DNA from: Thermococcus sp. SY098
GTDB taxonomy: Archaea; Methanobacteriota_B; Thermococci; Thermococcales; Thermococcaceae
Length of the DNA stretch: 64,000 nt
Assembly (NCBI RefSeq): GCF_035621495.1
Contig: NZ_CP141821.1
Span: forward strand, 1,082,760 to 1,146,759
Direction of reading: 5' to 3'
The position numbers and the translations under genes are program-made. The stretch's first letter is position 1. Each line of letters opens with the position of its first letter. Below the pieces are notes generated by a model that worked only from the letters and a program-made list of their open reading frames with translations, was not told the origin of the DNA and searched no databases. Positions 37,242 through 56,625 of the stretch are shown piece after piece.

Positions 37242-37323
37242 TTTGCTCAGCCACTCTGGGGCCAATCATCAGTTCAGCATTGGATTCATTCATCATCGCA
37301 CATTTAAAAGGTCTTGGGACAAG

Positions 37324-54691: not shown

Positions 54692-55141
54692 TTAAGGAGT
54701 AAAGGCTTGCCTTAGCTTTTCAATTTCCTCTTCACTCATTCTGTTCTTAATCCAGCGTTCTTTTAGCTCTAAGTTCTCGTCTTCAATATCAAGGACGGCC
54801 TTTCTGACGCCTCCTCTCGGAAAGTTCGTATCCCCTTCATATCTCGGGATTACATGAATGTGAAGATGTGGAACAGTCTGCCCAGCAGCTTTTCCCAAAT
54901 TTACACCCACATTAAAGCCATCCGGATTTAAAGTGTGCTTTAGCTTTTCTATTGCAAGTTCAATCCCTCTGAGCAAGGCAACTTTTTCCTCAAAGCTCAG
55001 CTCTCCCCATTTTTCCGCATGCCTCTTTGGGACAACCAATAGATGACCTTTATTGGCTGGATAAGAGTCAATAAGGATCTTAATTAGGTCGTCTTCATAA
55101 AGCAGCACTTCAGGGCTTGCATTGCAGAAGGGACATTTCAT
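54692..55141 (-). CDS. HIT-family hydrolase
   Basis: A 149-residue protein with the HIT motif QTVPHLHIHVIPR (His92, 94, 96). The N-terminal CPFC is typical of archaeal members that bind zinc. HIT enzymes hydrolyse Ap4A, AMP-lysine or related nucleotides. Convergent with the MazG-YbaK gene. A divergent sRNA promoter lies just upstream. Confidence 0.9.
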   Translation of the reverse strand: MKCPFCNASPEVLLYEDDLIKILIDSYPANKGHLLVVPKRHAEKWGELSFEEKVALLRGIELAIEKLKHTLNPDGFNVGVNLGKAAGQTVPHLHIHVIPRYEGDTNFPRGGVRKAVLDIEDENLELKERWIKNRMSEEEIEKLRQAFTP

Positions 55142-55185
55142 TTAACACACCCAAAATTATAAAGTGGGAGGAAATAAAAAGTTAT

Positions 55186-55243
55186 GGCAGATGATGAGCT
55201 TGGCCGCTCCTGAGCGGTGAGGATAAACCTCGGTCCTGATGCC
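55186..55243 (+). ncRNA. C/D box sRNA (2'-O-methylation guide)
   Basis: All four boxes are in order: C ATGATGA (55191-55197), D' CTGA (55210-55213), C' GTGAGGA (55217-55223) and D CTGA (55236-55239). Both guides, before D' and before D, are 12 nt long, and the D'-C' spacer is three bases. The ends pair GGCA (55186-55189) with TGCC (55240-55243). A TATA box TTATAAA (55157-55163) lies about 25 bases before the 5' end. It would guide methylation of a G in targets complementary to the guides. It lies antisense between two minus-strand genes. Confidence 0.85.
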
Positions 55244-56614
55244 TCATTTTATGAAGCTTATTGCCTTGTCTATGTCATTTTTATAAGCTCTGAGATATCT
55301 CTTACATGCATTTTCCCATGTAAAGACTTCCTTTGCTCTCCTCTTCCCATTAACTCTCATTTTCTTCAGCAGTTCTGGGTTTTCCTCTCTAAGCTTTGCC
55401 ATCCTAAGCATTGCCTGAGCTAAAGCAAAGGCATCCCTTGGAGGAACTAACAGACCAGTTGCATTTTCTTCATCCTCATCCAAGCTCACTATAGTATCCT
55501 TAATACCCCCAACCGCTGAACCTATTGGGATTGCTCCCAAACACATTGCTTCCATCTGCACAAGACCAAAGGGTTCAAAGTATGAAGGAATCACAACAAA
55601 ATCCACACTACCGTAGAGCTCTCTCGTAAACTCCCTCTTGAGCATCTTAGTGATAACCTTCACATTGTTTGGATATTTGCTCTCCATTGTGTGAGCCCAG
55701 TTCTCAAGCTCTGGATCACCTTTTCCAATGATGATAAACCTCATCTTTGAGAACTCTTGAGGATAGCTTTCAGCTAAAATTTTGATAGCCCTTAAAAGGG
55801 TGTCAACTCCTTTCTGTGCCTTATCAAATCTACCTATGAACATAAAAGCAATCCCATCGCTCAAGTCTAAGCTTTCAAGTATCTTTTTCCTTCTCTCTTC
55901 TCTTGGTAAATCCTTGTTTTCCAAAAATTCTTCGTTCCAGAAGTCACAGGCTATACCATTGAAGACATGTGTAACTTTGCCTTCAAACATACCAAAGAAT
56001 GCCCATTCCTCCCAAAGATAACTTTTGCTAACTGTTGTAACAAGATCAGCGATATAGCAGAGCGTGTGTTCTGGATCTATGTCTGGATAAGGAGCTAATT
56101 CTCCCAAATTAGCCATGTGGAAATAATAAGCTGGAACCTTGGATTTGTTCAGGCGGTGAATGGTTGCAACAAGATGTATTTGGAAATATTTTTTCAAAAG
56201 ACCTGCAGCAAAGACGGTGTGCCAGTCGTGGGCATGAATTACTTCAGGCTTTCCTTCGTTCTCTATGATTTTGTTCAGCAGTCCAACGCTTGCTTTTCCA
56301 AAGTGCACAGCTTTGCTCAGCATGCCCTCCCATCCTGGACCATAAACATCGGGGTTGTCTAAAAGAGGATCACTAATTGAAAAGACCCTAACTCCATTTT
56401 GTTTCCTCTCATAAACCTTGACATCCCACACATGGCCTGAGACGTCTATTTTAAAACTTGTGTATTCTTTTCCCTCTTTGAAGCCGTGAGATGGAGTAAA
56501 GACAAGCACTTCGTTGCCAAGCTCTGCTAAGGTTTCGGCTATGCTGGTTATCGCCTCAGCAAGTCCCCCAACTTTCACTGGTAGATACTCAAACCCAAGC
56601 ATTAATATTCTCAT
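55244..56614 (-). CDS. glgA: Glycogen synthase (GT5)
   Basis: About 456 residues. KVGGLAEAI near the N-terminus binds the sugar nucleotide, and the second domain has GRFDKAQKGVDTLLRA and PSYFEPFGLVQMEAMCLG. It extends alpha-1,4-glucan from UDP- or ADP-glucose. ATG 56614 follows GGTGCTGGAA. Only 11 bases after the regulator gene, so both are in one operon; a C/D sRNA abuts its end on the other strand. Confidence 0.92.
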   Translation of the reverse strand: MRILMLGFEYLPVKVGGLAEAITSIAETLAELGNEVLVFTPSHGFKEGKEYTSFKIDVSGHVWDVKVYERKQNGVRVFSISDPLLDNPDVYGPGWEGMLSKAVHFGKASVGLLNKIIENEGKPEVIHAHDWHTVFAAGLLKKYFQIHLVATIHRLNKSKVPAYYFHMANLGELAPYPDIDPEHTLCYIADLVTTVSKSYLWEEWAFFGMFEGKVTHVFNGIACDFWNEEFLENKDLPREERRKKILESLDLSDGIAFMFIGRFDKAQKGVDTLLRAIKILAESYPQEFSKMRFIIIGKGDPELENWAHTMESKYPNNVKVITKMLKREFTRELYGSVDFVVIPSYFEPFGLVQMEAMCLGAIPIGSAVGGIKDTIVSLDEDEENATGLLVPPRDAFALAQAMLRMAKLREENPELLKKMRVNGKRRAKEVFTWENACKRYLRAYKNDIDKAISFIK

Positions 56615-56625
56615 TTCCAGCACCT

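Follow-up and report, generated by a model that had tools for sequence, protein, structure and literature searches.

A Thermococcus orthologue of the C/D box sRNA sR32, with a guide predicted to direct Gm18 in tRNA-Gln

A short locus of Thermococcus sp. SY098, lying antisense between the HIT and glgA genes, is, as judged from its sequence, the Thermococcus orthologue of the catalogued archaeal C/D box sRNA sR32 and an ordinary member of that known family. Its D' guide is predicted to direct the 2'-O-methylation of G18 (Gm18) in both tRNA-Gln isoacceptors. We consider it very probable that the locus is an sR32 orthologue and that this guide targets tRNA-Gln.

The elements of the locus are given in Table 1. 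The original prediction had described four boxes, two 12-nt guides, a three-base D'-C' spacer and a closing stem, and all of them are found base for base as described; in addition, a single G can be read between GGCA and the C box. The locus has the properties expected of an archaeal C/D box sRNA, with boxes in the right order, guides of approximately 12 nt, a short closing stem flanking C and D, and complementarity to rRNA or tRNA upstream of the D and D' boxes (11 pairs for D' and 10 for D). The strict C-D'-C'-D pattern is matched only once in the 64-kb window, i.e. the whole stretch of DNA that was analysed, and this match is the present locus; none was obtained in 200 first-order Markov resamples. 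Across 20 distinct rows, 82.5% of the cells of the closing stem are paired and two-sided changes are observed at all four pairs, and none of 500 shuffles was as high on either the percent paired or the covariation score. The free-strand fold of the region gives a z value of -1.2, which is uninformative.

Table 1. Position and supporting evidence of the elements of the sR32 locus (coordinates in the window).
Position (strand)	Element	Evidence or remark
55157..55163 (+)	TATA box TTATAAA, AAAA before it	sequence, spacing
55186..55243 (+)	sR32 C/D box guide sRNA gene	RF01119 match, 23 strong homologues
55186..55189 (+)	GGCA, closing stem 5' arm	pairs with 55240-55243
55191..55197 (+)	C box ATGATGA	identical in 22/22 aligned homologues
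55198..55209 (+)	D' guide GCTTGGCCGCTC, 12 nt	predicted Gm18 in both tRNA-Gln isoacceptors
55210..55213 (+)	D' box CTGA	CTGA or CCGA among homologues
55214..55216 (+)	D'-C' spacer GCG, 3 nt	sequence
55217..55223 (+)	C' box GTGAGGA, one mismatch to RTGATGA	TGAGG core identical in 22 homologues
55224..55235 (+)	D guide TAAACCTCGGTC, 12 nt	candidate targets 23S G1115, 23S G634, tRNA-Gln G50
55236..55239 (+)	D box CTGA	21/22 aligned homologues; TTGA in the other
55240..55243 (+)	TGCC, closing stem 3' arm	abuts glgA stop codon at 55244

The gene had also been credited with its own TATA box at the right distance, and this is borne out, the last A of TTATAAA (55163) being 23 nt from 55186, where a pyrimidine-purine (T/G) start is present. 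Promoters of T. kodakarensis (PMC4247193) and P. furiosus (PMC6640164) have the same median distance between TATA box and start, and this spacing places the predicted start at 55186, where the closing stem begins. The TTATAA box is kept at the same place in genera g1 (G001 excepted) and g6. A scan for sigma-70 promoters and terminators gave no match, and none was expected in archaea. The antisense placement between the two neighbouring genes is likewise as proposed, since HIT (54692-55141) and glgA (55244-56623) are both on the minus strand and the sRNA is on the plus strand. In the region 55142-55190, the near-symmetric TTATAA box of sR32 is located just upstream of the opposite-strand HIT gene, and relatives have a GGAGGTG ribosome site in this region. 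Either the HIT promoter must overlap that of sR32, or HIT must be transcribed by read-through from glgA.

The locus had been described as unlisted, which does not hold: the covariance-model search (cmscan) assigns positions 55187-55241 to Rfam family RF01119 (sR32) over the full model (1-57), with a score of 51.1 bits for a gathering score of 40 and an E value of 1.4e-10. The same locus scores 39.9 in the multi-genome search, whose filters are stricter. This search covered 81 genomes and gave 23 strong matches distributed in three genera of the family. The C-terminus of glgA adjoins all 23 of these loci, the sRNA being antisense at the glgA 3' end, and 13 of them, belonging to genera g1 and g6, also have HIT as a neighbour. 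HIT is absent beside the copies of genus g2, which we take to be Pyrococcus. A search with the HIT protein gave only three named Thermococcus loci. Boxes, guide core and antisense place at the glgA 3' end are common to the SY098 copy and RF01119, and the alignment to the model requires two one-nucleotide gaps, before the D' box and after C'. The SY098 copy differs from the Rfam sR32 in lacking one nucleotide before D', so that the tRNA-Gln site is predicted at G18 and not at C16, in having a canonical CTGA D' box, and in carrying the D guide CCTCGGTC where RF01119 has CTCCGGTG. We regard the anatomy, the Rfam membership, the synteny, the stem covariation and the conservation of the guide as established. 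A search of the open literature for sR32 by name found no paper. The window also contains a second catalogued C/D box sRNA (RF01130, sR46, 82.8 bits) at 37245-37300 on the minus strand, just upstream of, or overlapping, a downstream ATG.

The targets of the two guides were searched in 7,897 nt of tRNA, 16S and 23S sequence, a set derived from family searches which includes 44 tRNA genes and from which intron-containing ones may be missing. The two exact 12-mers named as targets in the original prediction have no match in the genome without mismatch, except in the sRNA itself. With one mismatch, GAGCGGCCAAGC matches both tRNA-Gln genes as TAGCGGCCAAGC, which corresponds to linear positions 13-24 of tRNA-Gln(UUG) and tRNA-Gln(CUG), in the D-loop. 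The expectation of rRNA or tRNA complements is upheld by the 11-pair match to the tRNA-Gln D-loop and by 10-nt matches of the D guide, but not for a full 12-mer, and the predicted methylated base is indeed a G, namely G18 for the D' guide and G1115, G634 or G50 for the D guide. The D' guide forms 11 unbroken pairs with tRNA-Gln from N2 to N12, its sole mismatch being N1, which adjoins the D' box, and G18, the first of the two Gs of the D-loop GG pair, is paired with the fifth base counted from D'. A score of 11 is reached at the two tRNA-Gln genes only, the next best site in the search space scoring 8.5. Nevertheless, 19 of 300 shuffled D' guides (6%) also reach 11, so that the complementarity of this guide is weak evidence when taken alone; 33 of 300 shuffled D guides (11%) equal the best score of the D guide. 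On the basis of this control, complementarity was rejected as a stand-alone proof for either guide, and it is the comparative evidence that carries the argument for the D' target.

The same nucleotide has been reported in another archaeon: G18 of tRNA-Gln(UUG) in S. acidocaldarius is methylated under C/D guidance by prediction, and the methylation was observed, although the sRNA concerned is, unlike sR32, of crenarchaeal origin (PMC7668247). The guide in the Pyrococcus tRNA-Trp intron (sR50) is another case of C/D-guided ribose methylation of a tRNA, but it is located inside the intron of its own target and acts on positions 34 and 39. A preprint on tRNA analysed by OTTR-seq makes no mention of Gm18, position 18, Gln or sRNA (PMC12247713).

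The D guide pairs through N1-N10 (10 bp, with one G-U) with GACCGGGGTT, which is present at 23S positions 630 and 1111 (L030) and in the T-arms of both tRNA-Gln genes (L057 and L059; tRNA positions 45-55). The methylated base would be 23S G1115 (E. coli G993 by alignment), 23S G634 or tRNA-Gln G50, and with the 10-mer at all of these places one D guide could in principle serve the three sites. As rRNA is the usual target of such guides, 23S G1115 is favoured, and we retain it as a tentative candidate with slightly less than an even chance of being the true target. This site was located in 50 genomes and is unchanged in 49 of them, G022 having GACTGGGG. Among the homologues, N6-N8 of the D guide show only C/T variation, always compatible with pairing to the GGG of the target, a pattern that would fit selection on this GGG. 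In genus g3, no C/D sRNA carrying the D guide was recognised, and the three matches obtained look like chance.

Both guides of a genuine sR32 could instead act on tRNA-Gln, the D-loop then carrying Gm18 and the T-stem Gm50. Such a dual guide would agree with the pairing of both guides with the same two tRNA-Gln genes, but we judge it unlikely, given the same 10-mer at two 23S sites and the stability of the G1115 site across genomes. A further point that weakens a tRNA target for the D guide is that tRNA-Gln(UUG) has GACCCGGGTT, with a C inside the 10-mer, in Pyrococcus and in most genomes of g3. Moreover, a review describes tRNA guides as usually paired with a second guide without known target (PMC7994747).

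The D' guide varies very little across the Thermococcaceae. When RF01119 and pattern matches are combined, its core CTTGGCCGCT is present in 44 of the 61 genomes of this family, including the copy of G001, which has two changes inside the guide; pattern and family searches did not find it in the other 17. In g3, the genus of T. kodakarensis, the guide is carried by other sRNAs, away from glgA and mostly before the D box. In genome G030, which we take to be T. kodakarensis KOD1, it lies at 1159583-1159612, inside sR37 (1159583-1159644), whose order reads C box, guide GGAGTCTTAAC, D', C', guide GCTTGGCCGCTC, D. The T. kodakarensis sR37 is an expressed, circular C/D sRNA of 62 nt, with 356,961 aligned reads (PMC9014305). 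The guide preceding CTGA is identical in sR37 and sR32, which gives the same predicted target, G18; sR37 differs from sR32 by the position of this guide, before D and not D', and by its other guide and its genomic place, which are unrelated. Within g3, the tRNA-Gln guide (L172-L191) is found in at least two unlike sRNA contexts, among them the 3' end of a gene with an EIYRGYDEES-like terminus (L179) and an sRNA with a pyrimidine-rich first guide. Locus L024 may carry the tRNA-Gln guide in the D' position.

The presence of the guide was also compared with the state of its target. The guide is found in none of the six genomes in which the tRNA-Gln D-loop is altered (G025, G034, G040, G042, G043 and G092) and in 41 of the 52 in which it is unaltered (Fisher p = 3e-4, not corrected for kinship). 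The altered D-loops (TAGTGGCC, CCAATC and GGACAATC) are seen only where no recognisable guide is present.

The register of the guide was counted in 47 copies, which come from slightly fewer genomes because some of these are represented twice. The gap between GCT and the D or D' box is one nucleotide in 39 of these copies and two in the other eight, all from Pyrococcus; by the D+5 rule, these eight point to C16 and all the others to G18. The g3 copies located before the D box keep the same one-nucleotide register. Wolff et al. quote Lowe's snoRNAdb as listing C16 of P. furiosus tRNA-Gln among C/D targets, and they did not detect the predicted methylation in the tRNAs that they analysed (PMC7668247). 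We infer that this database entry corresponds to sR32. That the SY098 sRNA would itself methylate C16 and not G18, its true D' register being one nucleotide off, is improbable: the orthologous Pyrococcus guides, with two nucleotides between GCT and CCGA, and the listed P. furiosus site speak for it, but the SY098 copy has a perfect CTGA D' box exactly 12 nt after the C box, and the one-nucleotide register is that of every copy outside the eight-member Pyrococcus set, those before D included. For the preferred G18 reading, a broader view can tentatively be proposed, to which we give somewhat less than an even chance: the tRNA-Gln D-loop guide would be under selection across the Thermococcaceae and the sRNA that carries it would not, the guide preceding D' in sR32 and D in other sRNAs of the T. 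kodakarensis genus, the Gm18 register being kept everywhere except in most Pyrococcus, where the insertion of one nucleotide would lead to C16, and the guide being missing where the D-loop has changed.

The location of sR32 on the opposite strand between HIT and glgA could also suggest that its main role is the antisense regulation of glgA or HIT mRNA. This is very improbable. As the sRNA ends where the glgA stop codon begins, it could pair only with the glgA 3' UTR or with a glgA-HIT read-through RNA; furthermore, the conservation lies in the boxes and in guides matching tRNA and rRNA, the Pyrococcus copies do not have HIT beside them, and g3 keeps the tRNA-Gln guide at other loci. A chance arrangement, or a decayed and unexpressed copy, is hardly credible in view of the family-level conservation, the covariation of the closing stem and the intact promoter.

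Returning to sR32 as a methylation guide, we infer its transcription, RNP assembly and methylation activity as follows. Transcription would proceed from its own TATA box and start at 55186, and the RNA would fold into a kink-turn and a C'/D' motif, both of which would bind L7Ae, with Nop5 and fibrillarin then being recruited. In both tRNA-Gln species, positions 14-24 would base-pair with the D' guide, and the ribose methylated by fibrillarin would be that of G18, which faces the guide base five places upstream of D'. The D guide would most likely lead to the 2'-O-methylation of 23S rRNA G1115 (E. coli G993).

The sR32 family is already catalogued, and the new point is that the predicted site in SY098 is one nucleotide from that of its Pyrococcus relatives; the addition over routine annotation is the prediction of RNA-guided Gm18 in both tRNA-Gln species. 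Across the family, it looks as though a single guide has been moved from one sRNA to another and from one guide position to the other. Provided that natural one-nucleotide insertions obey the D+5 rule, Cm16 would be expected in Pyrococcus and Gm18 in Thermococcus.
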